Positions 34,501 to 64,000 of a stretch of 64,000 nucleotides of DNA are shown here, piece by piece (the first letter of the stretch is position 1; each line of letters starts with the position of its first letter). A model generated the notes under the pieces. That model saw nothing but the letters and a program-made list of their open reading frames with translations, was not told the DNA's origin and did no database searches. The DNA is from Fluviicola taffensis DSM 16823. Lineage in GTDB: Bacteria > Bacteroidota > Bacteroidia > Flavobacteriales_D > Crocinitomicaceae. The stretch is taken from assembly GCF_000194605.1 (NCBI RefSeq), contig NC_015321.1, forward strand, positions 3,286,001 through 3,350,000. The letters run 5' to 3'. The translations under genes were made by a program, and so were the position numbers.

Positions 34501-35543
34501 GAAGTTGTGTAAGTATGACAAATAGTTGCTGGAGGAGGATGAGATAAGGTGTCTGTAGGTGACCCATCTCCGTAATTGACCACGTAAAAAGTGGTGTTGT
34601 GATTGGAGGTATAATTACTCAGTGGAAAACAAAGTGTTATTGGTCCACAGCCTGTTGTAGCTCCTGGATTTGCAGCACCAATAGCCGGATTAGTAATATT
34701 CGCAATGTTGTAGGAAACCGTTTGAACACAGCCATTATTTCCAGTTACGGTATAATCCAACGTAAAAATCTCTGCAGTGGTGTAATTATGAGATAATCCA
34801 CCTCCAGGAAAAGTACCTGAATTAAAGTCTGGAGTACCGTCTCCCCATTGAATAGTATAGTTTGAAATGGCCGTAGTTGAAGAAGCATCAAAAACGGTCA
34901 TGGTAAAGTTTGAGCCATCACAATTGCGCATTTCGGCAATCGGATCGATCAATGCTGGATTTGGAAGCGCATTAATTGTAACTGTTTGGCTAATAGTTGA
35001 GGTACACCCATTTGAATTCGTAACAACTAATGTGACTGTGTAATTTTGACTTCCAGTACCAACTAAATTGAATTGATGTGTAGGATTTGTTTGAGAGCTA
35101 GTATTTTGTCCTCCAGAACTAGGATCTCCAAAATTCCAAGCATAACTGAGTCCTGTTCCAGTGGAGGTATTTGTAAATTGAATGGGAATATTGGAACAAC
35201 TGTTGTTGCCTGTAAAGTTAAATGAAGCTGTTGGAGGAGGTGCTACTGTAATCGTCACATTATTGTCGTCTGTGCATCCTAAAGATGAGGTAACAGTGAG
35301 TGTATACGTTTGATTACTTGTTGCTGTGAGTGTTGGGTTTGCACATGTAGTACAAGAGAGTCCTGTAGCTGGAGACCACGAGTAAGTTAATGTTCCCGCC
35401 CCAGTTCCAGCAGGAGTTCCACCGAGAACTGTGGATGCTCCAAGACAAACTGTTACATCAGGACCTGCATCTGCATTACATTGAGCAAATAAATTACTTT
35501 GGAGTAAAAGGCAAGCAGTAAGTAGAAGGAGAGAGTTCTTCAT
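28587..35543 (-). CDS. Giant PKD/Ig-repeat surface adhesin with gliding-motility-type (type B) C-terminal domain
   Basis: About 2318 residues, starting MKNSLLLLTACLLLQSNLFAQ. Layout: an Ig-like module (CNADAGPDVTVC...), several PKD domains (WNFGDPSSGG; WNFGDGQTLTTTTATSPTH), Ig-like Cys-containing modules, then a block of nine ~74-residue modules (31103-33110) in the order ABC-ABC-ABC. More PKD domains follow with repeated W.FGDG motifs. The C-terminus is a CHU_C/gliding-type domain (FIPNAMSPGHADFEV, LLIYDDWGNLIWSTD, YWDGTYRG, DAYVWKATATF) used for type IX export. The protein is probably a long surface filament for adhesion or gliding. Its SprF-like partner is 3 bp downstream. No enzymatic domain was seen. 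Confidence 0.92.
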   Translation of the reverse strand: MKNSLLLLTACLLLQSNLFAQCNADAGPDVTVCLGASTVLGGTPAGTGAGTLTYSWSPATGLSCTTCANPTLTATSNQTYTLTVTSSLGCTDDNNVTITVAPPPTASFNFTGNNSCSNIPIQFTNTSTGTGLSYAWNFGDPSSGGQNTSSQTNPTHQFNLVGTGSQNYTVTLVVTNSNGCTSTISQTVTINALPNPALIDPIAEMRNCDGSNFTMTVFDASSTTAISNYTIQWGDGTPDFNSGTFPGGGLSHNYTTAEIFTLDYTVTGNNGCVQTVSYNIANITNPAIGAANPGATTGCGPITLCFPLSNYTSNHNTTFYVVNYGDGSPTDTLSHPPPATICHTYTTSSCGQAGNQFVFRIKAINLCDSSEASISPIRVYTGPQANFNVAAVNNCVGSAVSFINSTQTGFNSACSSNTVFQWNFGDGQTLTTTTATSPTHIYTAPGTYTVTLTTTNTCSVNVITRTVCIESPPTPSFTITPTSACIPFTAQVTDASNLANTCNVTRTWTVLFNGSPCLPASGGFSFVGGTNASSVNPQIQFTQAGNYTVRLTLSNSCGSFVTNQPIVAQKPPQVIINTVPSVCAGLSVSPTASVIDCLEPSDSYLWTFTGGSPNSVATLVPGAISYPTAGTFPISLAVTNACGTTTANASVVIRPIPPVLNPQVNSPVCAGSTANFTSDASASTTYSWTGPNSFTSNQQNFNLTNVTATQAGTYTVFGTMAGCPGPSSSVTLIVNPIPVITVTPPSATICNGQSVSLTASGATSYTWSPATGLSATNTATVTANPTATQTYTIVGSNGTCSGTTTAIITVNPLPIVNAGPNVNLCNQPIPFTLTPTPAGGTWTGPNVTSTGIFTPSGTGSFNLVYSFTNGNGCTNTDTLIVTVTDPIPALAGPDSSKCFGSGTITLIGSPTGGTWSGTSITAAGIFTPNTVGTHALVYTFGTGTCLSRDTMLMTVNPLPIVDAGPNFAVCIDAGIQNLNGTPLGGTWTGIGITNPVGEFTPSVAGTGPKTLTYSFTNVNGCSASDNLIVTVNPLPIVNAGPDTTACDQPNPFQLTASPAGGIWTGTNVSSTGVFTPNGTGNFTLTYTFTNANGCIASDIRIVTVISPTQPNAGVDFAVCIDAPNVSLTPTPTGGTWSGSFTTPAGIFNPTIAGSFNLVYTLGSGACLLRDTLVALVNPLPIVNAGTDFSICIDAGIQNLAGTPTGGTWTGIGITNPTGEFTPSVAGTGAKTITYSFTDINGCTASDNLIITVNPLPVVNAGMDTTLCDQPLPIQFVGLPTGGTWSGTGITPSGLFTPSVVGTFNLIYTFTNGFGCTNSDTRIVTVVSPALANAGTDLEACIDAPTIQLTGMPITGTWTGSFVNASGLFNPTIAGTFPLVISNGAGNCLTSDTMLFTVHPLPIVSVGVDVEFCQSDTPVNFSGNPANGVWSGNGITDASLGTFDPAIAPIATNTIVYTFTNPTTGCINRDTLLATVHPMPVANFTYNPITCIGTNELFTNTSTLANQSDWSFGDGTSSSTSNTNHTYISAGFYDIQLLVTTSFGCLDSISHQIEVRIPPMADFILAPDSACGPMLVSFTDLSLGQSLTYNWNYGNGQTSTNPTPLSQTYQASNFSDTSYTITLNLTNFCGTSSHSEQITVMPSPTAVFGTSTNILCTPLILDMVNNSFGLPDTYEWIFGDGTTSDTSGTTLQHTFYTGTEDTTYTIQLIVSNECGSDTVQHQITVLPPQVNAFFNIDNPMGCVPHTINLNQFSQGASFSSWDFGDGNISSVYNPSHTFTTPGTYIVSLFAAGCGFDTTTTIVTVHPLPQIDFTSLDSVCVNQGFIFNNLSSGIASISWDFGDGTTSTLTNPTHSYSSGGFYTVTLSGISQTYGCTTQTSKTIKVNQGPTSQFTLGPNAGCVDLTVQMTNTSAGITSQAWNFGDGNSSIQTNPTHTFTTPGSYAVQLIVLDNIGCPDTATQVVTVYPLPTVDFTSTPIDPCIQPTVINFTNQSANAAGYLWNFGNGLSSTLTSPSSTYQQVGDYTVSLVATSIHGCVDSIQKTVSSYQLASASFVIPSDSLCVGEEIQLLVNSQFANSISWEMGDGTILTGNSINYSYGSSGNYNIVLIAYGDGGCNDTVATNSSITVLPQPTANFSYSNVEGPEPLSGIVAFTNLSSLADSYSWSFGNGNYSAEENPTEHYDSDGQFEIILIASTIHGCADTAVQNITVDFYYGLFIPNAMSPGHADFEVANFVPKGVGLKTFELLIYDDWGNLIWSTDALDENGRPTGYWDGTYRGVPVQQDAYVWKATATFRNEQVWEGKEYPKGRIKRSGTVTVIR
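31103..33110 (-). repeat. Higher-order protein-coding repeat, three 663-bp units each of three modules
   Basis: The same landmark (GCATTTACAA on the plus strand, or its close variant) falls at 33091, 32428 and 31765, an exact spacing of 663 bp (221 codons). Each unit holds modules A (..NAGP...CDQP..), B (..NAG.D...CIDAP..) and C (..CIDAGIQNL.GTP.GGTWTGIGIT..). Module C of units 1 and 2 is nearly identical, while the last C is diverged. Confidence 0.88.
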
Positions 35544-35563
35544 TTTCATTTGCGTAGTTGGTA

Positions 35564-48145: not shown

Positions 48146-50365
48146 ATGCTTCGCCAATATATATTTTTGTTGATTTTATCTGTAACTTTTGCGCATACAA
48201 CAAGCGCGCAGGATGTTTGGTTACAAAATCATTTTTCACCAAACTCAGGATGTTCTTTGTCAAACTTGGAAACAGTTACTGTTTTGGTTAATAATAACTC
48301 TGGAGGGGTTATGTTGTCAAATACTATTCAAGTATACTATACCATTGATGGAGGAAGTGCAGTAAATCAGCCCTTATCGTCCAATTTAACTGCAGGTGCT
48401 TCTTGGAATTTTAGCTTTGCAGTGAAAGCTAATTTATCTGCATGTGGCGCGCATATTGTAAAGGTTTGGGTGAGTAGACCGCTAGATCCAAATCATTTAA
48501 ATGATACACTTCAATGGACAGTTCAGAATGATTGTCCAATTGTTCCAGGTACAGTAATGTCAGATATTACCGTTTGTCAAGGTGCAAATGCAGGGACACT
48601 TTCGCTTTCTGGTTGGACCCATGGTACAATTACATCTTGGGAGTCTTCAACAAATGGTGGTTCCACTTGGACGCCAACGCTCCCAAATAATACTACACCT
48701 TCTTATGCTTATGCAAATGTGAATCAAAACACACAATATCATGTATTGATTGATGGTGGATATTGTCCCGATGATACTTCCAGTTTTGCGACAATAACTG
48801 TGCAATCACCGCCAGTTGCAGGTACTATTTTGGGATCAGATTCCTTGTGTGAAAATTTGGCGAATGGTGTTTTGAATCTTTCAGGAAATTCGATGCCCGT
48901 GGTTCAATGGGAGTATTCAACAACTGGAGGAAGTCCATGGACTGTTGTTGGTGGTCCAGCTACAAGTTATAATTATACGGGTCTTACTTCCTCAACCATA
49001 TATCGCGTATTAGTTGATGGCGGTGCATGTAACGATGCGTATTCGGATACGGCATTGATTTATGTAGATCCGATTTATCCTCAAACTGTTTTGACAGGAT
49101 CTGATTCCTTGTGTATTACTAATGCTACTGGAGTTGTGAGTGGAACAGGATCTTTCGGAACTGTTTTGGGTTGGGAATGGTCAAATAATGGTTTTATATG
49201 GAATTCGGTTACAAATACTAGTGGGATTTATAATTATGTGAATCTGACTCAAACAACCTATTACCGAATGATCACTGAAGGAGGGCAATGTCCGGATGTT
49301 ATCTCAGATACAGCAATCATTTTTGTACAATCTATACCAGTTCAGCCATCTTTAGGGCAATCAGATACTGTTTGTGCTGCTTTGGTTAATGGTATATTGA
49401 GTTTATCAGGAAATTCATCCACAATTATAGATTGGGAATCATCTACTGATTCTGGAACTATTTGGAATCCCATGACGAATACAACAAGTTCTTATGATTA
49501 TAGTGGACAAAGTGTTACAACCATTTATAGGGTTAATCTGGATGGATGGTTTTGTCCAGATTTTTATTCAGATACGGCTATTATTAAATTAGATACGCCT
49601 CCGGTAATTGGAGTTTTGAATCAGGACAATAGTGTGTGTCAGTTTACCACAGACAGTTTAAGTTTGGTTGGTGCAGTTGCAGATTCCCTTCGCTGGGAGT
49701 TTTCATTAGATAATGGAGCAACTTGGCAAACTATTGCAAATTCGGATACAAACCATATAATGACTCCTGCAATTACTGGTGATATTCAATTTCAAGTTGT
49801 TGCAATTAATGGAGTTTGTCCTCCATTAACATCAAATACAGTAACAATTACTATGATTCCTGCTCCTGTCTCGAATGCAGGAAATGATACCGCAATTTAC
49901 ATTGGTGAAACCGTTACATTGAATGGTTCTGGAGGGGTTACCGGAATTTGGATGCCTGGATCAACATTGTCTGATTCACTGATTACAAATCCGATTGCTA
50001 CACCAAGTACCACAACTAATTATGTTTATTATGTGATAGACGGAACTGGATGTGTCGGAAGGGATACGGTTGTCATTACTGTAATGGATCCGATTCAATT
50101 CAATATTAGAAATGTGATTACCATGAATAATGACCTTGTTAATGATACTTGGAATATTACTGGAGTTGAATTTTTTCCAATGACAGATGTGAAGGTCTTT
50201 AATCAATATGGAAAATTAATTTTTGAAAGTGGTGATTATAAGAATGAATGGGTTGGTGATTACAAAGGATCTAAATTACCTAATGGAACCTATTATTATG
50301 TTGTTCAAAAAGGGGGGACTGAGGAGGAGTATAAAGGAACAATAACATTATTAGGAAATGAATAA
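48146..50365 (+). CDS. Ig-like repeat surface protein with gliding-type (type B) C-terminal domain
   Basis: A protein of 739 residues. It has a signal peptide (MLRQYIFLLILSVTFAHTTSAQ), an N-terminal beta domain (about 25-130), then five tandem modules of ~85 residues with the pattern GSDSLC...G.L.LSG....W.ySTTGG..W and YRVLVDGG.C.D.YSDTA. A PKD/Ig-like module (NAGNDTAIYIGETVTLNGSGG) and a C-terminal gliding-type domain follow (NVITMNNDLVNDTWNITGV, DVKVFNQYGKLIFES, LPNGTYYYVVQKGG). Export by the type IX system is implied. The stop overlaps the ATG of the PorP-SPOR gene by 8 bp, so the two are translationally linked, as adhesin and partner. The 204-bp gap before it has no clear promoter. Confidence 0.88.
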   Translation: MLRQYIFLLILSVTFAHTTSAQDVWLQNHFSPNSGCSLSNLETVTVLVNNNSGGVMLSNTIQVYYTIDGGSAVNQPLSSNLTAGASWNFSFAVKANLSACGAHIVKVWVSRPLDPNHLNDTLQWTVQNDCPIVPGTVMSDITVCQGANAGTLSLSGWTHGTITSWESSTNGGSTWTPTLPNNTTPSYAYANVNQNTQYHVLIDGGYCPDDTSSFATITVQSPPVAGTILGSDSLCENLANGVLNLSGNSMPVVQWEYSTTGGSPWTVVGGPATSYNYTGLTSSTIYRVLVDGGACNDAYSDTALIYVDPIYPQTVLTGSDSLCITNATGVVSGTGSFGTVLGWEWSNNGFIWNSVTNTSGIYNYVNLTQTTYYRMITEGGQCPDVISDTAIIFVQSIPVQPSLGQSDTVCAALVNGILSLSGNSSTIIDWESSTDSGTIWNPMTNTTSSYDYSGQSVTTIYRVNLDGWFCPDFYSDTAIIKLDTPPVIGVLNQDNSVCQFTTDSLSLVGAVADSLRWEFSLDNGATWQTIANSDTNHIMTPAITGDIQFQVVAINGVCPPLTSNTVTITMIPAPVSNAGNDTAIYIGETVTLNGSGGVTGIWMPGSTLSDSLITNPIATPSTTTNYVYYVIDGTGCVGRDTVVITVMDPIQFNIRNVITMNNDLVNDTWNITGVEFFPMTDVKVFNQYGKLIFESGDYKNEWVGDYKGSKLPNGTYYYVVQKGGTEEEYKGTITLLGNE

Positions 50366-51776
50366 AATACTACTACTTATCTTTGCGTTTTTGTATTGGG
50401 GAAGTTCATTTGGACAGCAAGTTCCTTTTTACAATCATTATTTGATTAATCCATTTATTTACAATCCAGCTTTTACAGGTGCTAGCGATTATGTAAACGC
50501 GAGCTTTGTTCGAAATCAACGATATTCTTCATTTGGTTCTACTGCTGTCAATAATTATCTCACAGTTGAAGGTCCAATTGCAAAGGGTAAAATGGGGTTG
50601 GGAATTGTCGTGGCACATCAAAATCAAGGGATTCAACAGCAATTAATGTCAAGTTTGAATTATAGCTACAAATTGACAATCAATGAAGCGCATTCTATCC
50701 GTTTTGGAGTTTCAGCGGGTGTTTTGGACAACCGCATAGATTACGATAAAATCAATGCTCAAGAGATTAATGATCCCTATTTAACTGGTCTTAGACCAAC
50801 CGCTCCTGTTTTTGATATGAATGTTGGTTTGGTGTATGCTTGGAAGGATTTGAAAATCGGAATTTCTGTTCCTCAGATAATCGGAGGGAAGGTGAAGTAT
50901 GCAAAAGAAAAAAGCAGGGGTTATTATCAATTGGAAAGACATTACATGATGTCTTTGGAATATGATTTTCATGTAGGTGAAAAATTCATTGTTAGACCGA
51001 ATGCTGTTTTGAGATACCTACCCAGTGTTCCATTGCAATATGATATTTCTGCAATGGCTATTTACAATAACATGATTTGGGCATCTGCAACTTATAAATC
51101 AGATTATGCAGTTCAGTTCAATGCAGGTGTTCGCTTATTTGATTTTTTGAGAGTAGGGTATAGTTATGAGTTACTAATTGGATCTTTAAAACAATATAAT
51201 ACAGGAATGAATCATGAAGTTTTCTTAGGTTTTTCATTCAAAGGGAAACGGGAAAAAGAAATCCAGATTGTAGAAAAAGAAGTAAAGGTTACGGATGATT
51301 TAGCAATTAAACAAAGAGATTCGATTCAACGATTAAAAGATGATTTAGAAAATCAATTGAAAAGAATGTTAGAGGATCAAGCTAAAAAAGATCGAATTCA
51401 AAAAGAAAAAGACTCTTTGAATGACTTAGCGAAGGTTGTTGTTCCAGTAGTGGATACTGTAAAACCTAAAAATACAGCTCCTGAGGTTATCCCAGTTGCC
51501 AAAGGATATCATTTTGTGAATTTGGATAAAAGTGAATCTCCTGATGGATTTTATGTTATTACTGGCGTTTTCTCTAATAGACAAAATGCAGATTTGATGC
51601 TATCTAAAAATTTAGCGGAATATCCAAATTCCTATTTGGTTATCAATGAATCCAATAATTATTTTTATGTGGTGATTTTATATTCATTAGATCAAGAACT
51701 CGCTTCCACCACATTTAATGACTATAAAACGAAGAAGAAACAGAAGGTTTGGATTTTAAATTATTTAAAAAACTAA
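50358..51776 (+). CDS. PorP/SprF-family T9SS protein fused to a C-terminal SPOR-like domain
   Basis: A protein of 472 residues with a signal peptide (MNKILLLIFAFLYWGSSFGQ). The PorP/SprF barrel spans about 20-305 (VPFYNHYLINPFIYNPAFTG, GKMGLGIVVAHQNQGIQQQ, LRVGYSYELLIGSLKQYNTG). A charged coiled coil (about 310-355; IKQRDSIQRLKDDLENQLKR) and a final domain (about 385-470; GFYVITGVFSNRQNADLML and NNYFYVVILYSLDQELA) resemble SPOR, which binds glycan strands stripped of peptide. Usual PorP/SprF proteins end after the barrel. The extension could tie the outer-membrane exporter to the cell wall. It overlaps the upstream adhesin by 8 bp and is 60 bp from the giant SprB-repeat gene, probably serving both. 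Confidence 0.88.
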   Translation: MNKILLLIFAFLYWGSSFGQQVPFYNHYLINPFIYNPAFTGASDYVNASFVRNQRYSSFGSTAVNNYLTVEGPIAKGKMGLGIVVAHQNQGIQQQLMSSLNYSYKLTINEAHSIRFGVSAGVLDNRIDYDKINAQEINDPYLTGLRPTAPVFDMNVGLVYAWKDLKIGISVPQIIGGKVKYAKEKSRGYYQLERHYMMSLEYDFHVGEKFIVRPNAVLRYLPSVPLQYDISAMAIYNNMIWASATYKSDYAVQFNAGVRLFDFLRVGYSYELLIGSLKQYNTGMNHEVFLGFSFKGKREKEIQIVEKEVKVTDDLAIKQRDSIQRLKDDLENQLKRMLEDQAKKDRIQKEKDSLNDLAKVVVPVVDTVKPKNTAPEVIPVAKGYHFVNLDKSESPDGFYVITGVFSNRQNADLMLSKNLAEYPNSYLVINESNNYFYVVILYSLDQELASTTFNDYKTKKKQKVWILNYLKN

Positions 51777-51836
51777 CAATTCAGGCAACCTTTAATGAAA
51801 TTTATAGTCAATACATTGAGCTACACTTTTACGATT
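51774..51836 (+). other. Leader shared with the second SprB gene, copy 1
   Basis: From TAACAATT (51774) through GGCAACC and TCAATACATTGA (51808-51819) to the ATG at 51837. It aligns with 58300-58363 before the second giant gene, including the downstream ACTACTAC codons. The PorP stop codon forms its first three bases. Confidence 0.7.
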
Positions 51837-54800
51837 ATGAGAATAACTACTACTTTGAAAGGAATTTGCAACATAGCATTGCTTTTTGTCTTTATTTTGG
51901 GCTTTTCAACGGTTTCGCTATCCCAATTTCCGGGTTGTCCGAATATTGATGCTGGACCAGATCAAACACTTCCGTGTTCTACACCGTGTACGAATTTAAC
52001 GGCCACGCCTTTTGCTACGGGTGCAACAAATACATATTCTGTTAGTGCGATTCCGCATACTCCACCAATTGCTTATAATCAAACTGGTGGAACAGCTGTT
52101 TCAGTTGGAACGGATGACGTATTTTCCCCTGCAATTAACTTACCTTTTAATTTTTGTTATTATGGAACAAACTATAATACGTGTACAGTAAGCTCTAATG
52201 GAGGGATTAAGTTTGGAACTGCATTTGCAAATGCAGGATCAGGTTTTAGTTATGTTGGAGGAGTCCCTAATGCGAGTCTTGTTTCAAGAGGTGATATATT
52301 TGGAGTAGGACATGATATTGATCCTACAGTGGCTGGATCGGTTACATGGTACTTGCTAGGAACGGCTCCTTGTCGGATTTTTGTTGTTTCTTTTAATGAT
52401 TTGGGCCATTTTCAATGCAATGCTATGAGAAGTACTCACATGATGGTTTTGTATGAAACAACGAATGTGATAGATGTTTACATTGCTAGAAAAGATGCTT
52501 GTAATACATGGCATCAAGGGTATGGAATTGTTGGTATTCAAAATCCGGCTGGAACAACAGGTATTGCGGCTCCTGGTAGAAATGGAATTCCATCATGGAC
52601 TGTACCTACCGCAACTCCAGAAGCATGGCGTTTTACTCCAACGGGAGCTCCTAACTATTCGGTTGCTTGGTTTCAAGGAGCCACTCAAATAGGTGTTGGA
52701 AATACAATTAACGTGTGTCCAACCGCCAGTACCACTTATACATCTGTCGTCACTTATAATCGATGTGATGGAACCACTGTAACAGATAATGATCAGGTTA
52801 CAGTTAATTTTTCAGGCTTAGGGCCTGCAACAGTTACTCCAACAGCAGAATCTTGTGCGAATTACAATAATGGATCGGTTGTTATTGATAATGCTCCAGG
52901 AGCAGGTCCATATACGGTCAATATTACTGGTCCTGCAACTGGCTCTGTCGTTGAGGGGAATGCAGCTGGAGCTACGGCCAATTTTACGAATTTACCTGAT
53001 GGGAATTATACTTTTACGGTAACAGGTGCAAATGGATGTACAACGACAGGTAATTTTACAATTGCTGCTGGTCCACCATGTTGTAGTGTTACCGCAGTAA
53101 ATACAAATATACTTTGTAATGGGTCTCCAACAGGAACTGCAACTGCAACACCTGTAGGTTTAGCTCCTTATACCTATTCTTGGACTGGTGGTGGTCAAAT
53201 ATCACAAACAGCTACAGGTTTAGCTGCTGGGCCGTATACTGTCACCATGACTGATAATTCTGGTTGTGTTGCTACAGCGAATGTTACTGTTACCCAGCCT
53301 ACTGTTTTAAGTGGAACGATTGCAGCTGTGAATGTTTCTTGTAATGCTGCTTGTAACGGAACAATTACGGTAACTGCTGCAGGAGGAACGCCTGGTTATC
53401 AATACAGTTTAAATGGAGGCGCTTTTCAAGCATCGAATGTGTTTACCGGTTTGTGTAATGGAACGTATGCAGTAACTATTCGAGATGCAAATAACTGTAC
53501 AGTTATTATCAATCAAAATATTACACAGCCTGCCGTTTTGAATTTAACGCAAGCATCTATTTCTCCAGCTAATTGTGGAGCAAATAGTGGCTCTGTAACG
53601 GTTACCCCTTCTGGAGGAACTGCACCTTATACCTATACCATTGATGGTGGAGCAAGTCAAGCTAGTCCTACTTTTAGTGGATTGACTCCAGGTACTCATA
53701 CAGTTGAGGTTACAGACAATCGTGGTTGTACTCGAAATTTGATTATAACAATTGTAGCTACAAATGCACCAGTTGCTTCAATATTGAGCCAAACAAACGT
53801 AAGTTGTTTTGGAGGTGTTAATGGATCTGTGATTATTGGATTAGCAGGAGGTTCTTCACCATTTACTTATTCAATTGGAGGTCCATTCCAAGCTTCTAAT
53901 ACGTTTACAAATATTACGGCTGGAACATATACAGCTACAGTAACGGATGCAAATGGTTGTAGTGGAACAGTTTCATTTACAATTACAACCCCACCACAAC
54001 TTACTTTTACATCTACAGCAACCGCTGCATCTTGTAATGGAGTATGTGATGGTCAAATTCAAGTGAATGCAACAGGTGGAACAGCACCTTATCAATATTC
54101 GTCTAACAACGGTATTACTTATGTCTTAGCGAATCCATTAACAGGTTTGTGTGCTGGAACGACTAGTGTAGTTGTAAAGGATGCAAATGGGTGTTTGACA
54201 AACTCAGACATCATCATTACACAACCAGCACCAGTTTCAGGTACTTTTGTCAACACAAACCCGATTTGTAATGGCGTATGTGATGGAACAATCACAGTTA
54301 CTCCTTCAGGAGGTACACCAACGTATCAATATTCATTGAATGGCGGAGCTTTACAAGCAGGAAATACAATTACAGGTGGTTGTGGAGGAAACAACACGAT
54401 TATGATTCAAGATAGTCATGGTTGTCAGTTTACTTCTGTTCAGGTATTAACCGATCCTCCAGGATTTGGAATTGATACAACGGTTGTTATCGAATCAAAT
54501 TGTGGATTTAACAATGGATCAATCAATGTGGTAGCAAATGGTACCAATGGACCTTTTTCTTATACAATGACAGGAGCTCCTGCTCAACCCCAACCAACAG
54601 GAGTTTATACAAATTTGTTTGCTGGAGCTTATGAAATCACAGCAGTGGATCAATTGGGTTGTTCAGAATCGGTATTCTTTGGAATCAATGATGTTGAAAT
54701 GGATGGTATTACCTTATTTCAAACCGATGCGAATTGCTTTGGAGTTGCAGATGGTACTATTGAAGTTCAGAACGTAAGTGGAGCAATTCCTATTACGTAT

Positions 54801-57800
54801 GAATTGGATAACAATCCACCGACTCAATCTTCAGGTTTCTTTCCGAATATTCCTTTTGGATCACACATTGTGACTATTTATGATGGTGGATTTTGTGTAT
54901 TCACGATTCCATTCAATGTTGCAGAACCCACAGAAATACAATTTGATACAGATTTAACGAATATCAGTTGTAATGCAGGTAGTACAGGAGAGATAGAATT
55001 TATCAATGTTTCAGGAGGAACAGGAGCTCATCAATTTAGTATTGATGGAGGAACGACTTACCAATCTAGTCCTATTTTTACAGGTTTACCCGCAGGTACT
55101 TATCCCTTAGATGTGATGGATGCGAACGGTTGTACTGTTTCAGGTTCAGTGACACTTATTCAAGCCCCAGCATTGACTATTGCATCGACTGTTTTTGACT
55201 TAACCTGTTTTGGTGATGCTTCAGGAGGAATTCAAATTGGATCCACAGGCGGAACAGGAGCTTACCAATACAGTATTCTTGGAGGTGCAGCAGGTTCTTT
55301 TTCACCGATTGAATCCTTCTTTGGCTTGTCAGCAGGAACTTATAATTTAGTGACTCAAGATGCTGCAGGTTGTCAGATCACAGGAACAGCAATAGTTAAC
55401 CAACCAGCTCAATTGACAGCAACTTACACCGCAACGAATGCAACATGTTTTGGTGTTTGTGATGGAGAGATTGCAGTGAATGCATCAGGGGGAACAGCTC
55501 CTTATTTGTATAGTCCAGATAACGGCTTGAATTACTTTGTAGCAGCGACATTAGAGAACTTATGTGCTGGAAATATTGATATTCAAGTGAAAGATGATAA
55601 CGATTGTTTTATCACAGCAGTTCAAGTAATTACCCAACCAACAATAGTTACGGTAAATGCCGTTCCAACGGATGCTACTTGTTCTTTGGCTAATGGTCAA
55701 ATAGCATTAACAGGTGGAGGCGGAACTGGAGCATACACTTACAGTATTGGAAATCCAGCAGCAGGTCCATATACAGCAACGTCAACATACACTGGATTGC
55801 TTGCAAATGTTTACAATGTCTTTGTTCATGATGCAAATAACTGTGAGGCAACAACAACGGTTTCAATAGCAAATTTCGCATCCCCAATCATTATTGGATC
55901 AGCAGTTACGAATGTATCATGTAATGCAGCATGTGATGGCGAATTACAGGTTACAGTTTCAGGCGGAACAGGAACAATTTCATACTCAATCGGTACACCT
56001 CAAGCAGCACCTTTAATTACAGGTATCTGTGCAGGAAACTACACGCTAACAATTACAGATCAAAACGGATGCACGGACACTGAACCAATTGTGGTGACAG
56101 AACCAGCAGTATTAACAGCAACAGTAACCCCAACAGCGTTAACCTGTTTCAATAACAATACAGGTGAAATTACATTCGTAGCATCAGGGGGAACAACACC
56201 TTATAGCTACAGTACGAACAATGGAGTTTCATTCTCGAGTCAGACTAACGTTCAATTCTTAAGTGCAGGAACTTACAACACGGTTGTTCGAGATGCGAAT
56301 GGTTGTTTGGTCAATACGAACATTATCGTTACAGAACCGGCACAGTTACTTGTTCAAAACATGGTTGTGAACAATGCAAGTTGTCATGGAGTCTGTGATG
56401 GAGATGCAACTGCAACGATTACAGGCGGAACAATACCTTACAGTTTTGCCTGGTCAGATGGAACAACAGGTACAGGTGCAACTGGTCTTTGTGCAGCTAC
56501 TTATGATGTTACTGTAACAGACGATAATGGCTGTTCTGCTATTGAAGTTTTCAATATTACTGAACCACCATTATTGGTGATTACAAGTACAAGTGCAACG
56601 GATGCATTGTGTAATGGAGATTGCAATGGTACAATTACTATTAATTCACCGCTTGCAACTGGATATAGTGTTAACAATGGAGCTACATTCCAACCTTCCA
56701 ATGTGTTTAATGGACTTTGTGCTAATACGTATACTATTCAAGTGCAAGATGCGGCAGGATGTACACAATCTGCTTCCATAGTTGTGGGTCAACCTCAACC
56801 GTTGGTTCAAGGATTGATTCCTGAAGATGGGTTATTAATCTGTTACGATGGATTTGGAACCTTGTCTGCAAATGCAACAGGAGGAACATCACCTTATTAT
56901 TTTGTTTGGAATACAGGAGACACCACTCAATTTTTGAATGTGAATTTGACTGCACCAGCAACATTTACTTGTACAGTATCCGATCAAAATGGATGTACAT
57001 CCAATGCTCAAAACGCAAACGTAACAGTTAGAACTCCATTTGTAGCTTCAGTTACAACACCAGTAATGGCTTGTCCTGGAGATTCAGTAACGTTTACAGC
57101 ATCTGGTACAGGTGGTTTACCTGGGTATAGTTATGAATGGTTAACTCCAACAACATTTGATACATTGGCGAATGGAACAAGTTATTCATATACTCCAAAT
57201 GGATCTGAAACAGTATTGATGGTTGCTCATGACGAATGTTATAGATACGATACAATTCCAGTGACTGTTCAAATTTATGCACTTCCAAGTGCTGAGTTTG
57301 AAGTAACGCCAGCATCTGGATGTTCTCCACTAAGAGCTGATTTTAGCTTTCCGATTGCTACAGCTGGTTCAATTACGAATGCTAACTGGACTTTTGGGGA
57401 TGGTAACACTGGAACTGGAACCACTGTTTCTCATGTGTTTACACAAGTTGGTTGTTACGATGTAACTGTAGAAATCACAACTACTGACGGATGTATTACA
57501 GATACAACGTTGTCGAATATTGTTTGTGTGGTTCCTGATCCGATTGCAAATTTCAATTGGTCACCAGTTTCACCAACTACCATTAATTCAACGATTAACT
57601 TTAATGATAACTCTGTGAATGCGGCAACTTACGCTTGGGATTTTGGCGCCTTTGGTACTTCTACGTTAGAAAACCCAATTATTAATTATGGGAATATCGA
57701 TGCAGGAAGTTATCAAGTATGTTTAACAGTAACCTCTCCTGAAGGTTGTGTGAATGATATCTGTAAACCAATTGTGTTTATCGAAGAGTTTTTGATTTTT

Positions 57801-58073
57801 GTTCCAAATACGTTTACTCCGGATGGTGATGAATTTAATAATGTATTCAAACCAGTTGTTCCGGTAGGAATGGCATTGGATGATTACACCTTTACTATTT
57901 TCAATAGATGGGGAGAAGTGTTATTCGAGTCACATGATGTGAATTTTGGATGGGATGGAACTTATCATGGTACCCAAGTAAAAGAAGGTGCTTATACTTG
58001 GACAATAGTAGCTAAAGGAGGCGGAGATAAAAAAGCGCGTAAATATGAAGGACATGTGAACATGTTGAAATAA
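51837..58073 (+). CDS. Giant SprB-repeat adhesin A with gliding-type C-terminal domain
   Basis: About 2078 residues from ATG 51837 (MRITTTLKGICNIALLFVF; an ATG at 51795 is also in frame, but alignment with the second gene favours 51837). Layout: signal peptide; N-terminal head of ~300 residues with a nidogen-like look (INLPFNFCYYGTNYNTCTVS, YETTNVIDVYIA); about 18 SprB-type repeats of ~76 residues (CNGVCDGTITVTPSGGTP.YQYS.NGG and variants); two PKD domains (WTFGDGNTGTG); and a CHU_C/gliding C-terminus (FVPNTFTPDGDEFNNVFKP, FTIFNRWGEVLFESHD, KEGAYTWTIVAKGG). It resembles the mobile gliding adhesin SprB of Flavobacterium. Nearly all repeats are duplicated in the next gene. A terminator follows at 58093-58129. 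Confidence 0.92.
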   Translation: MRITTTLKGICNIALLFVFILGFSTVSLSQFPGCPNIDAGPDQTLPCSTPCTNLTATPFATGATNTYSVSAIPHTPPIAYNQTGGTAVSVGTDDVFSPAINLPFNFCYYGTNYNTCTVSSNGGIKFGTAFANAGSGFSYVGGVPNASLVSRGDIFGVGHDIDPTVAGSVTWYLLGTAPCRIFVVSFNDLGHFQCNAMRSTHMMVLYETTNVIDVYIARKDACNTWHQGYGIVGIQNPAGTTGIAAPGRNGIPSWTVPTATPEAWRFTPTGAPNYSVAWFQGATQIGVGNTINVCPTASTTYTSVVTYNRCDGTTVTDNDQVTVNFSGLGPATVTPTAESCANYNNGSVVIDNAPGAGPYTVNITGPATGSVVEGNAAGATANFTNLPDGNYTFTVTGANGCTTTGNFTIAAGPPCCSVTAVNTNILCNGSPTGTATATPVGLAPYTYSWTGGGQISQTATGLAAGPYTVTMTDNSGCVATANVTVTQPTVLSGTIAAVNVSCNAACNGTITVTAAGGTPGYQYSLNGGAFQASNVFTGLCNGTYAVTIRDANNCTVIINQNITQPAVLNLTQASISPANCGANSGSVTVTPSGGTAPYTYTIDGGASQASPTFSGLTPGTHTVEVTDNRGCTRNLIITIVATNAPVASILSQTNVSCFGGVNGSVIIGLAGGSSPFTYSIGGPFQASNTFTNITAGTYTATVTDANGCSGTVSFTITTPPQLTFTSTATAASCNGVCDGQIQVNATGGTAPYQYSSNNGITYVLANPLTGLCAGTTSVVVKDANGCLTNSDIIITQPAPVSGTFVNTNPICNGVCDGTITVTPSGGTPTYQYSLNGGALQAGNTITGGCGGNNTIMIQDSHGCQFTSVQVLTDPPGFGIDTTVVIESNCGFNNGSINVVANGTNGPFSYTMTGAPAQPQPTGVYTNLFAGAYEITAVDQLGCSESVFFGINDVEMDGITLFQTDANCFGVADGTIEVQNVSGAIPITYELDNNPPTQSSGFFPNIPFGSHIVTIYDGGFCVFTIPFNVAEPTEIQFDTDLTNISCNAGSTGEIEFINVSGGTGAHQFSIDGGTTYQSSPIFTGLPAGTYPLDVMDANGCTVSGSVTLIQAPALTIASTVFDLTCFGDASGGIQIGSTGGTGAYQYSILGGAAGSFSPIESFFGLSAGTYNLVTQDAAGCQITGTAIVNQPAQLTATYTATNATCFGVCDGEIAVNASGGTAPYLYSPDNGLNYFVAATLENLCAGNIDIQVKDDNDCFITAVQVITQPTIVTVNAVPTDATCSLANGQIALTGGGGTGAYTYSIGNPAAGPYTATSTYTGLLANVYNVFVHDANNCEATTTVSIANFASPIIIGSAVTNVSCNAACDGELQVTVSGGTGTISYSIGTPQAAPLITGICAGNYTLTITDQNGCTDTEPIVVTEPAVLTATVTPTALTCFNNNTGEITFVASGGTTPYSYSTNNGVSFSSQTNVQFLSAGTYNTVVRDANGCLVNTNIIVTEPAQLLVQNMVVNNASCHGVCDGDATATITGGTIPYSFAWSDGTTGTGATGLCAATYDVTVTDDNGCSAIEVFNITEPPLLVITSTSATDALCNGDCNGTITINSPLATGYSVNNGATFQPSNVFNGLCANTYTIQVQDAAGCTQSASIVVGQPQPLVQGLIPEDGLLICYDGFGTLSANATGGTSPYYFVWNTGDTTQFLNVNLTAPATFTCTVSDQNGCTSNAQNANVTVRTPFVASVTTPVMACPGDSVTFTASGTGGLPGYSYEWLTPTTFDTLANGTSYSYTPNGSETVLMVAHDECYRYDTIPVTVQIYALPSAEFEVTPASGCSPLRADFSFPIATAGSITNANWTFGDGNTGTGTTVSHVFTQVGCYDVTVEITTTDGCITDTTLSNIVCVVPDPIANFNWSPVSPTTINSTINFNDNSVNAATYAWDFGAFGTSTLENPIINYGNIDAGSYQVCLTVTSPEGCVNDICKPIVFIEEFLIFVPNTFTPDGDEFNNVFKPVVPVGMALDDYTFTIFNRWGEVLFESHDVNFGWDGTYHGTQVKEGAYTWTIVAKGGGDKKARKYEGHVNMLK
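52828..57110 (+). repeat. Long near-identical direct repeat, copy 1 (SprB stalk)
   Basis: Aligns with 59721-64000 at an offset of 6893 bp at the left end and 6890 bp at the right end, a single net 3-bp in-frame difference. Over the 210 bp from 53071 I count two mismatches. The first ~240 bp of the copy are more diverged than the rest. The copy is cut by the window end, so its true length is unknown. Confidence 0.97.
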
Positions 58074-58092
58074 TCAGCTTTAAATAGTTTTG

Positions 58093-58129
58093 AAAAGGTT
58101 CTCTGTCATCTGATAGAGAACCTTTTTTT
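58093..58129 (+). terminator. Rho-independent terminator of adhesin gene A
   Basis: Stem AAAAGGTTCTCT (58093-58104) with AGAGAACCTTTT (58115-58126) around a 10-nt loop, followed by T up to 58129. It lies 19 bp after the stop codon. The second giant gene must then have its own promoter in 58130-58363. Confidence 0.92.
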
Positions 58130-58299
58130 ATTCCATAAATACCGATTGAAATTAAAAACAGGAAGGTATTTAATTGGGAAAAAAAATTGCTATTTCTAAA
58201 ATTTTGTTATTTTTGGTAAACTACGGTTCTTATAAAAATGGTTTTAATAAGTTGTTTATTTAGCAAATAGTTGATTTTAGAGGTTTTTTTCTAAAATTT

Positions 58300-58363
58300 T
58301 AACAATTAAAGGCAACCAATTGAAAAAAAAACTGTCAATATATTGAACAACAACACTATGACT
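58300..58363 (+). other. Leader shared with the first SprB gene, copy 2
   Basis: TAACAATT (58300), GGCAACC (58311-58317), the perfect palindrome TCAATATATTGA (58335-58346), then the start region. It aligns with 51774-51836. The A/T-rich stretch 58130-58299 before it shows no recognisable -7 element or other gene. Confidence 0.7.
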
Positions 58364-61300
58364 ATGAAAAGAGCTACTACTTTCAGATTAAGTTGCAATT
58401 CCTTATTGCTTCTTTTGTTCATGACAAGTTTTTCAAAAACTACATTTGCACAAATAACACTCAGCCAAACTACGGCTGCTAATTATGTAGCGAATATTTG
58501 TGGTCCTGGGATTACTTTTTCCAATGTTACTCTTACTGGAGATGCAGGGGCAATAGCTCAGTTTTTGGGTGGTAATTCAGGTGGTTTGGGAGCTTCCATG
58601 AATTCAGGTGTTGTTATGAGTACTGGCTATGTGAATGCTGCTAATGCGCTTCAAGGAGCAAATGGCGCTCAGGTGAGCAGCGATAATAATGGAGGTGCAA
58701 TTGCGGCATTGAATACAATTGCGGGTGCTGCTACAAACGATGGTATTATTCTGGAATTCGATTTTGTACCAATAACAGGTAACATTAATGTGAATTATGT
58801 ATTTGGCTCTGAAGAATACAATGAGTACGTGAATTCTGGATATAATGATGCATTTGCCTTTTTTATTAGTGGTCCTGGTATTGTGGGTACACCAAATATT
58901 GCTGTTATTGGAGCAGTACCTGTAACAATTGATAATATTAACAATGGGACTAATGCAGGCTCTTATAGAAATAATCAAGTTTTAAATAACAATAACATAA
59001 TGGATGGGTATACTGTCCAATTGACAGCTTCCAGAGCAGTGATTGCTTGCGAAACTTATCACATTCAACTAATGATTGCTGATGGGGGCGATCAAGTGTA
59101 TGATTCTTGGGTATTCATACAAGAGAATGGATTATTCGCTGTAGGTAATCCTCCTGTTTCATCGGTTACATCAAGTGGTGCAGGACCTGGTATTTTTCCA
59201 GAAGGTTGTTCGAATAACACCATGACATTTAACATACCAACCGCTCTTGCAACGCCTTATTCATTCAATGTTACTTGGACAGGTACTTCAACTTCTGGGG
59301 CAGATTATAGTGCATTGCCAACAACCATTACAATTCCTGCAGGCCAAACCTCTGTTACGATTCCAGTGAACGTTATTTTGGATGGAATTGCTGAAGGAAG
59401 TGAAACCTTAATTTGTACTTATCCCGCAACGGTATGTGCTGCAGGTGTCGCTATTGTGAATATTGTAGATGCGAATCCGCTAACTGTTACCGCAAGTCCA
59501 GATGTCAATATATGTACTACTGGATCTAGTGTGCCTTTATCAGCTACATCTACTGGTGGTACAGGAACGGTAACTTATACATGGTCGCCAGGTGGTGCAA
59601 CAGGCACTCCTGTAAATGTTTCTCCTACAGCAACAACAACTTATACAGTAACAGCTACAGACCAATGTGCAAATATTGTTACAGACCAAGTAATCGTAAC
59701 TTATTCTGCTTTGACAACTCCAACAGTTACTCCTACAGCAGAATCCTGTGCGAATTACAATAATGGATCGGTTGTTATTAATAACCCTGTAGGTTTTGGT
59801 CCATATACTGTTAGTATTTCCGGACCAACAACTGGTTCTGTAGTTGAAGCAAATACCGCTGCAGCCACAGCAAACTTTACAAACCTCCCTGATGGGAATT
59901 ACAATTATATAGTTACAGGAGCAAATGGATGTACTCTATCAGGTACTTTTTCAATTGCTGTTGGTCCACCATGTTGTAGTGTTACCGCAGTAAATACAAA
60001 TATACTTTGTAATGGGTCTCCAACAGGAACTGCAACTGCAACACCTGTAGGTTTAGCTCCTTATACCTATTCTTGGACTGGTGGTGGTCAAACATCACAA
60101 ACAGCTACAGGTTTAGCTGCTGGGCCGTATACTGTCACCATGACTGATAATTCTGGTTGTGTTGCTACTGCGAATGTTACTGTTACCCAGCCTACTGTTT
60201 TAAGTGGAACGATTGCAGCAGTGAATGTTTCTTGTAATGCTGCTTGTAACGGAACAATTACCGTGACTGCTGCAGGAGGAACGCCTGGTTATCAATATAG
60301 TTTAAATGGAGGCGCTTTTCAAGCATCAAATGCTTTTACAGGTCTTTGTAATGGAACGTATGCAGTAACTATTCGAGATGCTAACAACTGTACAGTTATT
60401 ATCAATCAAAATATTACACAGCCTGCCGTTTTGAATTTAACGCAAGCATCTATTTCTCCGGCTAACTGTGGTGGTACTGGATCTGTAACGGTTACACCTT
60501 CTGGAGGAACAGCACCTTATACCTACACCATTGATGGCGGAGCAAGTCAAGCTAGTCCTACTTTTAGTGGATTGGCTCCAGGTACTGATACAGTTGTAGT
60601 TACAGACAACCGTGGTTGTACTCGAAATTTGATTATAACAATTGTAGCTACAAGTGCTCCAGTTGCTTCGATTTTAAATCAAACAAACGTAAGTTGTTTT
60701 GGAGGTGTTAATGGATCTGTGATTATTGGATTAGCAGGAGGTTCTTCACCATTTACTTATTCAATTGGAGGTCCATTCCAAGCTTCTAATACGTTTACAA
60801 ATATTACAGCTGGAACATATACAGCTACGGTAACGGATGCAAATAGTTGTAGTGGAACGGTTTCATTTACAATTACAACCCCACCACAGCTTACTTTTAC
60901 ATCTACCGCAACCGCTGCATCTTGTAATGGAGTATGTGATGGTCAAATTCAAGTGAATGCAACAGGTGGAACAGCACCTTATCAATATTCGTCTAACAAC
61001 GGTATTACTTATGTCTTAGCGAATCCATTAACAGGTTTGTGTGCTGGAACAACTAGTGTAGTTGTAAAGGATGCAAATGGGTGTTTAACAAATTCAGACA
61101 TCATCATTACACAACCAGCACCAGTTTCAGGTACGTTTGTCAACACAAACCCGATTTGTAATGGCGTATGTGATGGAACAATCACAGTTACTCCTTCAGG
61201 AGGTACACCAACGTATCAATATTCATTGAATGGCGGAGCTTTACAAGCAGGAAATACAATTACAGGTGGTTGTGGAGGAAACAACACGATTATGATTCAA

Positions 61301-64000
61301 GATAGTCATGGTTGTCAGTTTACTTCTGTTCAGGTATTGATTGATCCTCCAGGATTTGGAATTGATACAACGGTTGTTATCGAATCGAATTGTGGATTTA
61401 ATAATGGATCAATCAATGTGGTAGCAAATGGTACCAACGGCCCTTTTTCTTACACAATGACAGGAGCTCCTGCTCAACCGCAACCAACAGGCGTTTATAC
61501 AAACTTGTTTGCTGGAGCTTATGAAATTACAGCGGTGGATCAATTGGGTTGTTCTGAATCGGTATTCTTTGGAATCAATGATGTTGAAATGGATGGTATT
61601 ACCTTATTTCAAACCGATGCGAATTGCTTTGGAGTTGCAGATGGTACTATTGAAGTTCAGAACGTAAGTGGAGCAATTCCTATTACGTATGAATTGGATA
61701 ACAATCCACCGACTCAATCTTCAGGTTTCTTCCCGAACATTCCTTTTGGCTCACACATTGTGACTATTTATGATGGTGGATTCTGTGTATTCACGATTCC
61801 TTTCAACGTTGCAGAACCTACAGAAATACAGTTTGATACAGATTTAACGAATATCAGTTGTAATGCAGGTAGTACAGGAGAGATAGAATTTATCAATGTT
61901 TCAGGTGGAACAGGAGCTCATCAATTTAGTATTGATGGAGGAACGACTTACCAATCTAGTCCTATTTTTACAGGTTTACCAGCAGGTACTTATCCCTTAG
62001 ATGTGATGGATGCGAACGGTTGTACTGTTTCTGGTTCAGTGACACTTATTCAAGCCCCAGCATTGACTATTGCATCGACTGTTTTTGACTTGACATGTTT
62101 TGGTGATGCTTCAGGAGGAATTCAAATTGGATCAACAGGCGGAACAGGAGCTTACCAATACAGTATCCTTGGAGGTGCAGTAGGTTCTTTTTCACCGATT
62201 GAATCCTTCTTTGGCTTGTCCGCAGGAACTTATAATTTAGTAACACAAGATGCTGCGGGTTGTCAGATCACAGGAACCGCAATAGTTAACCAGCCAGCTC
62301 AATTGACAGCCACTTACACCGCAACGAATGCAACATGTTTTGGTGTTTGTGATGGAGAGATTGCAGTGAATGCATCAGGGGGAACAACACCTTATTTGTA
62401 TAGTCCAGATAACGGCTTGAATTACTTTGTAGCAACTACATTAGAGAACTTATGTGCTGGAAATATTGATATTCAAGTGAAAGATGATAACGATTGTTTT
62501 ATCACAGCAGTTCAAGTAATTACCCAACCAACAATAGTTACCGTAAATGCAGTTCCAACGGATGCTACCTGTTCATTGGCTAATGGTCAAATCGCATTAA
62601 CAGGTGCAGGGGGAACTGGAGCATACACTTACAGTATTGGAAATCCAACAGCAGGTCCATATACAGCAACGTCAACATACACTGGATTGCTTGCAAATGT
62701 TTACAATGTCTTTGTTCATGATGCAAATAACTGTGAGGCAACAACAACGGTTTCAATAGCAAATTTCGCATCCCCAATCATTATTGGATCAGCAGTTACG
62801 AATGTATCATGTAATGCAGCATGTGATGGCGAATTACAGGTCACAGTTTCAGGCGGAACAGGAACAATTTCATACTCAATCGGTACTCCTCAAGCAGCAC
62901 CTTTAATTACAGGTATCTGTGCAGGAAACTACACGCTAACGATTACAGATCAAAACGGATGTACGGATACAGAACCGATTGTTGTTACAGAGCCAGCAGT
63001 ATTAACAGCAACAGTAACCCCAACAGCACTGACCTGTTTCAATAACAATACAGGTGAAATTACATTCGTAGCGTCAGGAGGAACAATACCTTATAGCTAC
63101 AGTACAAACAATGGAGTTTCATTCTTTAATCAGACGAACGTTCAATTCTTAAGTGCAGGAACTTACAACACGGTTGTTCGAGATGCGAATGGTTGTTTGG
63201 TAAATACAGCTGTTATCGTTACCGAACCAGCATTATTAACTATTCAGAATATAACTACCAACAATGCAAGTTGTCATGGAGTCTGCGACGGAGATGCAAC
63301 TGCAACGATTACAGGCGGAACAATACCTTACAGTTTTGCCTGGTCAGATGGAACAACAGGTACTAGTGCAAATGGACTTTGTGCTGCTACTTATGATGTT
63401 ACTGTAACAGACGATAATGGCTGTTCTGCTATCGAGATCTTTAATATTACTGAGCCACCATTATTGGTGATTACAAGTACAAGTGCAACAGATGCATTGT
63501 GTAATGGAGATTGCAATGGTACTGCTACAATTAATTCACCGCTTGCAACTGCATTTAGCATAGATAATGGAGCTACATTCCAACCTTCCAATGTATTTAA
63601 TGGACTTTGTGCAGGTACATATCAAATTCAGGTTCAAGATGCGGCAGGATGTACTCAAAATGGTGCAGTTACCTTGGGCGAGCCACAGGTATTGGTTCAG
63701 GGACTTATTCCAGAAGATGGATTGTTAATCTGTTATAATGGAAACGGTACTATATCTGCAAATGCAACAGGCGGAACAGCACCTTATTATTTTGTTTGGA
63801 ATACAGGAGATACAACTCAGTTTTTGAATGTAAACTTAACGTCACCAGCAACATTTAATTGTACAGTAATCGATCAAAATGGATGCGCATCGAATGTGCA
63901 AAGTGCTACTGTAAATATCAGACCATTGTTTACAGCTTCAGTAACAACTCCATTGAATGTTTGTCCTGGAGATTCAGTAACGTTTACAGCATCTGGTACA
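58364..64000 (+). CDS. Giant SprB-repeat adhesin B (cut by window end)
   Basis: Open from ATG 58364 to the last base, 1879 codons, all in one frame. Layout: signal peptide (MKRATTFRLSCNSLLLLLF ... FAQ); a choice-of-anchor L-type domain (about 30-250; LTGDAGAIAQFLGGNSGG, VVMSTGYVNAANAL, FVFGSEEYNEYV-like YVFGSEEYNEYVNSGYND); a Calx-beta-like module (TWTGTSTSGADYSALPTTI ... GIAEGSETLICTYP); an Ig-like module (ASPDVNICTTGSSVPLSATS); then SprB repeats nearly identical in DNA to those of adhesin A from residue ~453 on. The missing C-terminus should carry PKD and gliding-type domains. ATG 58358 is an alternative start. It has no PorP partner of its own in view. Confidence 0.9.
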   Translation, partial: MKRATTFRLSCNSLLLLLFMTSFSKTTFAQITLSQTTAANYVANICGPGITFSNVTLTGDAGAIAQFLGGNSGGLGASMNSGVVMSTGYVNAANALQGANGAQVSSDNNGGAIAALNTIAGAATNDGIILEFDFVPITGNINVNYVFGSEEYNEYVNSGYNDAFAFFISGPGIVGTPNIAVIGAVPVTIDNINNGTNAGSYRNNQVLNNNNIMDGYTVQLTASRAVIACETYHIQLMIADGGDQVYDSWVFIQENGLFAVGNPPVSSVTSSGAGPGIFPEGCSNNTMTFNIPTALATPYSFNVTWTGTSTSGADYSALPTTITIPAGQTSVTIPVNVILDGIAEGSETLICTYPATVCAAGVAIVNIVDANPLTVTASPDVNICTTGSSVPLSATSTGGTGTVTYTWSPGGATGTPVNVSPTATTTYTVTATDQCANIVTDQVIVTYSALTTPTVTPTAESCANYNNGSVVINNPVGFGPYTVSISGPTTGSVVEANTAAATANFTNLPDGNYNYIVTGANGCTLSGTFSIAVGPPCCSVTAVNTNILCNGSPTGTATATPVGLAPYTYSWTGGGQTSQTATGLAAGPYTVTMTDNSGCVATANVTVTQPTVLSGTIAAVNVSCNAACNGTITVTAAGGTPGYQYSLNGGAFQASNAFTGLCNGTYAVTIRDANNCTVIINQNITQPAVLNLTQASISPANCGGTGSVTVTPSGGTAPYTYTIDGGASQASPTFSGLAPGTDTVVVTDNRGCTRNLIITIVATSAPVASILNQTNVSCFGGVNGSVIIGLAGGSSPFTYSIGGPFQASNTFTNITAGTYTATVTDANSCSGTVSFTITTPPQLTFTSTATAASCNGVCDGQIQVNATGGTAPYQYSSNNGITYVLANPLTGLCAGTTSVVVKDANGCLTNSDIIITQPAPVSGTFVNTNPICNGVCDGTITVTPSGGTPTYQYSLNGGALQAGNTITGGCGGNNTIMIQDSHGCQFTSVQVLIDPPGFGIDTTVVIESNCGFNNGSINVVANGTNGPFSYTMTGAPAQPQPTGVYTNLFAGAYEITAVDQLGCSESVFFGINDVEMDGITLFQTDANCFGVADGTIEVQNVSGAIPITYELDNNPPTQSSGFFPNIPFGSHIVTIYDGGFCVFTIPFNVAEPTEIQFDTDLTNISCNAGSTGEIEFINVSGGTGAHQFSIDGGTTYQSSPIFTGLPAGTYPLDVMDANGCTVSGSVTLIQAPALTIASTVFDLTCFGDASGGIQIGSTGGTGAYQYSILGGAVGSFSPIESFFGLSAGTYNLVTQDAAGCQITGTAIVNQPAQLTATYTATNATCFGVCDGEIAVNASGGTTPYLYSPDNGLNYFVATTLENLCAGNIDIQVKDDNDCFITAVQVITQPTIVTVNAVPTDATCSLANGQIALTGAGGTGAYTYSIGNPTAGPYTATSTYTGLLANVYNVFVHDANNCEATTTVSIANFASPIIIGSAVTNVSCNAACDGELQVTVSGGTGTISYSIGTPQAAPLITGICAGNYTLTITDQNGCTDTEPIVVTEPAVLTATVTPTALTCFNNNTGEITFVASGGTIPYSYSTNNGVSFFNQTNVQFLSAGTYNTVVRDANGCLVNTAVIVTEPALLTIQNITTNNASCHGVCDGDATATITGGTIPYSFAWSDGTTGTSANGLCAATYDVTVTDDNGCSAIEIFNITEPPLLVITSTSATDALCNGDCNGTATINSPLATAFSIDNGATFQPSNVFNGLCAGTYQIQVQDAAGCTQNGAVTLGEPQVLVQGLIPEDGLLICYNGNGTISANATGGTAPYYFVWNTGDTTQFLNVNLTSPATFNCTVIDQNGCASNVQSATVNIRPLFTASVTTPLNVCPGDSVTFTASGT
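59721..64000 (+). repeat. Long near-identical direct repeat, copy 2 (SprB stalk, truncated by window end)
   Basis: Partner of 52828-57110. The mismatches I looked at are mostly in third codon positions, and the one length change is a multiple of three, so both copies are under selection as protein. Confidence 0.97.

Follow-up and report, generated by a model that had tools for sequence, protein, structure and literature searches.

The window analyzed here is a 64,000-nucleotide stretch (positions 3,286,001 to 3,350,000 of NC_015321.1) of the Fluviicola taffensis DSM 16823 (= RW262) genome, which is closed as one contig of 4,633,577 bp. Toward its end lie two giant adhesin genes in tandem, here called A and B (Table 1). 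Gene B is still open at the window end and is complete in locus L009 (L009:8843-15475, where the window position equals the L009 position + 49500). Orthologues share a conserved leader and start, ATGACTATGAAA, so that the true starts are probably the ATG at 51837 for A and the ATG at 58358 for B. The N-termini of both proteins, read by eye, look like signal peptides.

Table 1. Features of the adhesin cluster, in window coordinates.
Feature	Coordinates	Strand	Basis and comparison
739-aa T9SS type B (CHU_C) protein, first gene of the cluster	48146-50365	+	Pfam CHU_C 3.8e-21, TIGR04131 7.8e-17
PorP/SprF-family outer-membrane shuttle/anchor	50358-51776	+	Pfam PorP_SprF 1.3e-54, TIGR03519 8.4e-62
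Gene A, giant adhesin, 2092-aa ORF	51795-58073	+	ORF; ~14 SprB, 2 PKD, CHU_C/TIGR04131
Head A, Ig/PKD-like domain with ~200-aa beta insertion	51924-52826	+	AlphaFold2 model, structure matches
5' shoulder, gene A	52827-53060	+	78.6% identical to B; change-point segmentation
Stalk core, gene A (SprB repeats), homogenized tract	53061-56309	+	96.4% identical to B
3' shoulder, gene A	56310-57122	+	83.1% identical to B; change-point segmentation
Tail segment, gene A	57123-57449	+	55.2% identical to B; orthologous evolution, 40 orthologue : 7 species sites
End of A with type B C-terminal sorting domain	57450-58070	+	83.9% identical to B
CHU_C domain, end of gene A	57798-58034	+	Profile match
Intrinsic terminator between A and B (stem-loop and U tract)	58092-58127	+	-22.2 kcal/mol, z -7.5
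Candidate Bacteroidota-type promoter of B, TTG-N18-TATTTTTG	58187-58215	+	Pattern match; consensus match only
Gene B, giant adhesin, 2210 aa	58343-64000, onward to equivalent of 64975	+	ORF open at window end; SprB, PKD, CHU_C
Head B, choice-of-anchor L domain, then Calx-beta-like domain	58439-59719	+	Profile and fold matches
5' shoulder, gene B	59720-59953	+	Segmentation
Stalk core, gene B, homogenized tract	59954-63199	+	Segmentation
3' shoulder, gene B	63200-64000	+	Segmentation; continues beyond window end

Each protein has an N-terminal head of its own; common to both are a stalk of some 15 SprB repeats and the sorting domain at the C-terminus. SprB repeats (PF13573) were found in 14 and 15 stretches (E = 3e-107 and 4e-107), the type B sorting domain scored above the TIGR04131 cutoff and the CHU_C gathering score in both, and a PorP/SprF gene is linked to them. 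On these profile matches A and B are predicted to be full-length SprB-repeat adhesins, secreted by the type IX system (T9SS) and encoded beside a PorP/SprF gene.

At the thresholds applied, head A had no match in Pfam or NCBIfam. Modeled by AlphaFold2 (pLDDT 89), it resembles an Ig/PKD domain with an insertion of about 200 residues in beta structure, and its structural matches were generic and of Ig/PKD type only (Z up to 9.7 over 77 residues). Head B carries a choice-of-anchor L domain at 58487-59131 (NF038133, 2.4e-60), followed by a Calx-beta match that lies below the gathering score (2.9e-4) and is accompanied by a fold match to Calx CBD1; the structure search returned only the Calx-beta module and weak MAM-like matches. 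The fold matches of heads A and B allow no ligand to be inferred. The length of gene A is near-constant across the genus, at 2069 to 2098 aa from stop to stop (L053, L054, L055, L056, L057, L058, and window 51795-58073), and the gene A of another family (L061) encodes 2088 aa and is about 50% identical. The stalk seems to have a fixed number of repeats, as though its length were important.

The PorP/SprF gene overlaps the 739-aa gene upstream of it, and in every compared Fluviicola locus spanning the two, the 739-aa gene was syntenic and the PorP/SprF gene was kept. A PorP/SprF gene directly downstream of a type B gene is the usual cognate arrangement. Because the shuttle gene directly follows the 739-aa gene, its product may be the partner of the 739-aa protein first; its position also makes it the probable anchor for A and B. 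No more than about 60 bp separates the PorP/SprF stop from the start of gene A, which probably belongs to the same operon. A strong terminator hairpin lies 3' of A, and another 3' of B. SprF is known to bind SprB, which requires it (PMC9143113), PorP/SprF proteins act as cognate shuttles, one of them serving three type B substrates (PMC12618676), and F. taffensis has been described as gliding (PMC3236050).

Two further loci of this genome were noted. A minus-strand gene at window 28587-35549 encodes a 2320-aa protein in which 11 or more PKD domains and, at 31511-33121, internal direct repeats of about 75% identity were found. In a third SprB-stalk paralogue (L011:6714-13506, genome positions 3819713-3826505) the reading frame is interrupted at a run of eight G (L011:8241-8248), giving two frames. 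Five relatives have an uninterrupted frame of about 2264 aa, and the run is absent from G007, the relative that was checked; it is either a phase-variable homopolymer or a 454-era sequencing error.

Segmental identity of the two genes

Comparing the window with itself by BLASTN gave a single long direct repeat, 52825-57110 against 59718-64000 (4294 columns, 93.04% identity, 280 mismatches, E = 0), at an offset of 6893 bp that becomes 6890 bp past a 3-bp indel. When the first 2 kb of the repeat was compared with the whole genome, the next-best match was just 67% identical, so the pair is unique there. We then delimited segments by optimal change-point segmentation of the A/B codon alignment. 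Identity was not uniform but concentrated in a 3.25-kb core with sharp edges, and the heads (51783-52826) were unrelated, at 46% identity. In the core, where 118 of 3243 sites differ, substitutions were 96.5 synonymous to 22.5 nonsynonymous (dS 0.13, dN 0.009, dN/dS about 0.07), and in the 3' shoulder they were 62.5 to 50.5.

A first-pass annotation had described the two copies as nearly identical over 4.28 kb, with mostly synonymous mismatches and a net 3-bp length change. The repeat coordinates and the length change are borne out. The near-identity is not, since it amounts to 93.0% overall and reaches 96.4% in the core alone, and the excess of synonymous mismatches holds for the core and fails in the 3' shoulder. 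The end of the second copy at 64000 is the edge of the window rather than of the repeat. The alignment with dN/dS that the annotation had proposed shows segmental identity, with shoulders at 79% and 83% on either side of the core.

Tests of concerted evolution

A congener, G009, has both genes, and we aligned the codons of FtA and FtB (F. taffensis) with those of G009A and G009B as a quartet. In the core, 829 informative sites grouped the copies by species and 1 grouped them by orthologue, whereas in the tail segment 40 grouped by orthologue and 7 by species (Fisher p = 1e-60 for the contrast). Trees of the two segments agreed with these counts. The core tree joined FtA with FtB and G009A with G009B, each at 100%, and rejected an orthologue clade (AU p = 2e-49); the tail tree joined FtB with G009B (bootstrap 99) and rejected the paralogue clade FtA+FtB (AU p = 0.007). 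Species grouping extends more weakly to the C-terminal sorting domain (57657-58068), where 46 sites grouped by species and 2 by orthologue and an orthologue clade was again rejected (AU p = 5e-4).

Synonymous divergence of the core was 0.13 and about 0.04 within the two species and saturated between them, while the tail segments of A and B were 55% and 59% identical within each genome. The two G009 cores are 99.9% identical over 3,084 bp, a value that assembly could have inflated, G009 being a metagenome-assembled genome (MAG). The long-form B heads form one clade, (FtB,G001B),(G009B,G007B), with bootstraps of 77% for FtB+G001B and 100% for G009B+G007B. Because this tree is compatible with that of the flanking genes, gene B is older than these species. 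The stalk thus looks recently duplicated although the genes predate the species split.

Likeness within each genome at synonymous sites, orthologous grouping elsewhere and sharp boundaries between the two are the pattern of segmental concerted evolution. As read from these alignments, the stalk core was homogenized separately in the two lineages. The homogenized tracts of the two species overlap and differ in their 5' ends (alignment column 593 versus 612), as expected of separate events. Third-position differences are clumped in the F. taffensis core (dispersion p = 0.002, longest-run p = 0.07), which fits several events of different age. Strong homogenization is not universal, since the tandem pair of G033 (L061), which belongs to a different family of the order, reaches only 72% identity, over part of the stalk.

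Gene content and order in relatives

We compared the locus in eight congeners and in one genome from a different family; a number of these, G009 and G001 among them, are MAGs, and G001 and G007 are incomplete at the stalk. The cluster of 739-aa protein, PorP/SprF and one or more adhesins was kept wherever a contig spanned it, with a DinB-family gene downstream in most. Gene order is A-B in F. taffensis and B-A in G009 (NZ_CABHOL010000054). This reversal holds whatever the assembly of the stalk, as unique sequence runs through each of the junctions PorP-headB, tailB-headA and tailA-DinB. Since the heads moved along with the tail segments, one crossover in the stalk would not suffice for the change of order, and a simple head swap is excluded as its cause.

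Five congeners (G008, G003, G013, G006 and G012) have A only, and the long-form B head was found at a strict cutoff in 4 of the 14 genomes of the genus, F. taffensis included. In G001 and G007 a B head follows PorP/SprF on contigs that break off inside the stalk, and an A-type tail stands at another contig end, next to the DinB-family gene. A search of these two genomes found no long-form A head, only a short-form head at 63%; the missing B-tail/A-head piece may reflect a fusion or a loss in binning. The arrangement could be an unresolved B-A pair or a fused gene with B head and A tail, and that contigs of both genomes break in this stalk speaks for near-identical copies in them as well. Of the recombination outcomes predicted from the repeat, changed order and loss of B are thus seen between species, while a one-gene fusion, for which G001 and G007 are candidates, and a deletion of 6.89 kb remain predictions.

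The remaining B-head matches in F. taffensis and G007 are short-form, and at another site in both genomes short-form relatives of heads A and B, about 60 to 65% identical to them, stand side by side without a long shared stalk (L062:6855-13807 and L063:5816-12985), so the pairing of the two heads may predate the present locus. In G001 the reading frame of gene B is interrupted near where the stalk begins, not far from the contig end (L060:1-2062); the interruption is either real or an assembly error at a collapsed repeat. The present Fluviicola locus is also carried by CP034120.1 (L065), labeled Glaciecola amylolytica THG-3.7; the genome set places this genome in the genus of F. taffensis, and the name looks wrong.

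Probable reading: two heads on a shared stalk

We consider it highly probable that A and B are two old, distinct tandem genes for T9SS type B adhesins whose stalk cores were homogenized separately in at least two Fluviicola lineages, and which would present different tips on a common stalk and anchor. A reading that we find distinctly less likely, though not far-fetched, makes the homogenized stalk a recombination platform on which T9SS adhesins have their heads and tails permuted, lost or fused; it draws on the B-A to A-B change of order, the loss of B and the possible B-head/A-tail fusions in G001 and G007. Were it true, the adhesive tip would vary within populations of a free-living gliding bacterium.

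Replacement of both cores at once by a mobile or horizontally exchanged cassette from outside would likewise give the two copies of a species the same species-specific core, and allelic exchange is common among the surface proteins of Porphyromonas gingivalis, also of the Bacteroidota (PMC5266723). An external donor is, however, unnecessary, and the F. taffensis stalk groups with no sampled donor in the core tree; we regard such a cassette as improbable. Slightly more improbable still is a recent duplication, which the first-pass annotation had offered beside the older copies kept alike by gene conversion; one adhesin gene would have been copied in tandem and its head then replaced. High core identity, the core dS of 0.13 and the adjacent, direct orientation speak for it. 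Its signature would be uniform divergence, with orthologues of both copies absent elsewhere; divergence is instead segmental, both genes have orthologues in G009, where the B heads, B tails and gene B itself correspond to those of F. taffensis, and the A/B tails are only 55% and 59% identical. A single recent duplication cannot yield two species with homogenized cores and old ends; it would have to have occurred twice, with the same heads and tails gained both times. The quartet and synonymous-site tests rule it out and uphold the annotation's other suggestion, as heads and tail segment follow the gene and the core follows the species.

The same tests rule out purifying selection alone, on a stalk that tolerates no change, and we give it hardly any credence. 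Low core dN/dS and the near-constant length of the A protein would suit it, but synonymous sites are homogenized within species and saturated between them, which refutes selection at the protein level as the cause. Duplication of one stalk by the assembler, as the contigs ending in the stalk of two relatives might suggest, is equally hard to credit in F. taffensis, whose copies differ at the 118 core sites and whose heads and tails join unique flanks in both orders. An 11-kb paired-end library was used to finish this genome (PMC3236050), making a collapsed or invented copy unlikely.

Under the preferred reading of two old genes with a homogenized stalk, the mechanism would be RecA-type homologous recombination between the direct repeats, mostly nonreciprocal. 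Gene conversion is the simplest form of it, although a double crossover looks alike in single genomes. Exchange would stop at the unrelated heads in one direction and at the diverged tail in the other, and would keep the stalk and sorting signal common while tips and tail segment stay distinct; occasional wider exchanges might reorder or delete a gene. From the neighboring genes and the literature, A and B would leave the cell through the T9SS and be retained by the product of the PorP/SprF gene immediately upstream, so that one anchor and one stalk design could present two different binding tips at about equal distance from the cell. Two heads on one stalk and one anchor is the most economical reading, with binding, display and expression putative.

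The locus offers a clean case of one protein evolving in different modes along its length, with separate heads, a shared stalk, a separate tail and a shared sorting signal. The converted parts, stalk and sorting domain, coincide with what both proteins presumably need in common. One can therefore test whether stalk geometry and shuttle recognition are held in common while the binding tip can vary freely. Stalks of this kind may break assemblies, as in the two relatives whose contigs end inside the A/B stalk, and their identity misleads when adhesin duplications are dated.

Segmental gene conversion in tandem adhesins is already known from LigA/LigB of Leptospira, and exchange between paralogous adhesins from HMW and Helicobacter pylori. 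LigA and LigB, like A and B, are tandem surface proteins of Ig-like repeats that are near-identical in part and otherwise unique; their first six to seven domains and the upstream 266 bp are near-identical, which was attributed to gene conversion (PMC7821625). What LigA and LigB share lies at the N-terminus and takes in the promoter region, whereas A and B share the middle, between unrelated heads and a diverged tail; the Lig proteins also belong to a different phylum and use a secretion route other than the T9SS. In HMW1/HMW2 of Haemophilus influenzae, divergent binding domains are shuffled between loci, again attributed to gene conversion (PMC8262952), a parallel to the change between A-B and B-A order; those genes occupy two separate loci, use two-partner secretion and are known from strain-level data, whereas A and B are tandem and compared at the species level. 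Gene conversion between paralogous adhesin genes is also shared with alpA and homA/homB of H. pylori (PMC5971833), which, unlike A and B, encode outer membrane proteins without a repeat stalk and vary at the population level.

Nearer in phylogeny, hagA, rgpA and kgp of P. gingivalis encode Bacteroidota T9SS substrates whose identical repeats within and between genes break short-read assemblies (PMC5266723). Their repeats are gingipain and HagA adhesin domains rather than SprB repeats, and they form no tandem pair with a shared stalk and different heads, as A and B do. In the literature covered by our search, mostly outside the subscription journals, we found no earlier report of gene conversion in a SprB-type T9SS tandem pair. 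Closest in architecture is SprB/SprF of Flavobacterium johnsoniae, which has the SprB repeats, the type B C-terminal domain and the PorP/SprF neighbor in common with A and B (PMC9143113). SprB is one 669-kDa gliding adhesin, whereas A and B, whose movement along the cell would be hypothetical, are two proteins of about 2,100 to 2,200 aa with different heads.
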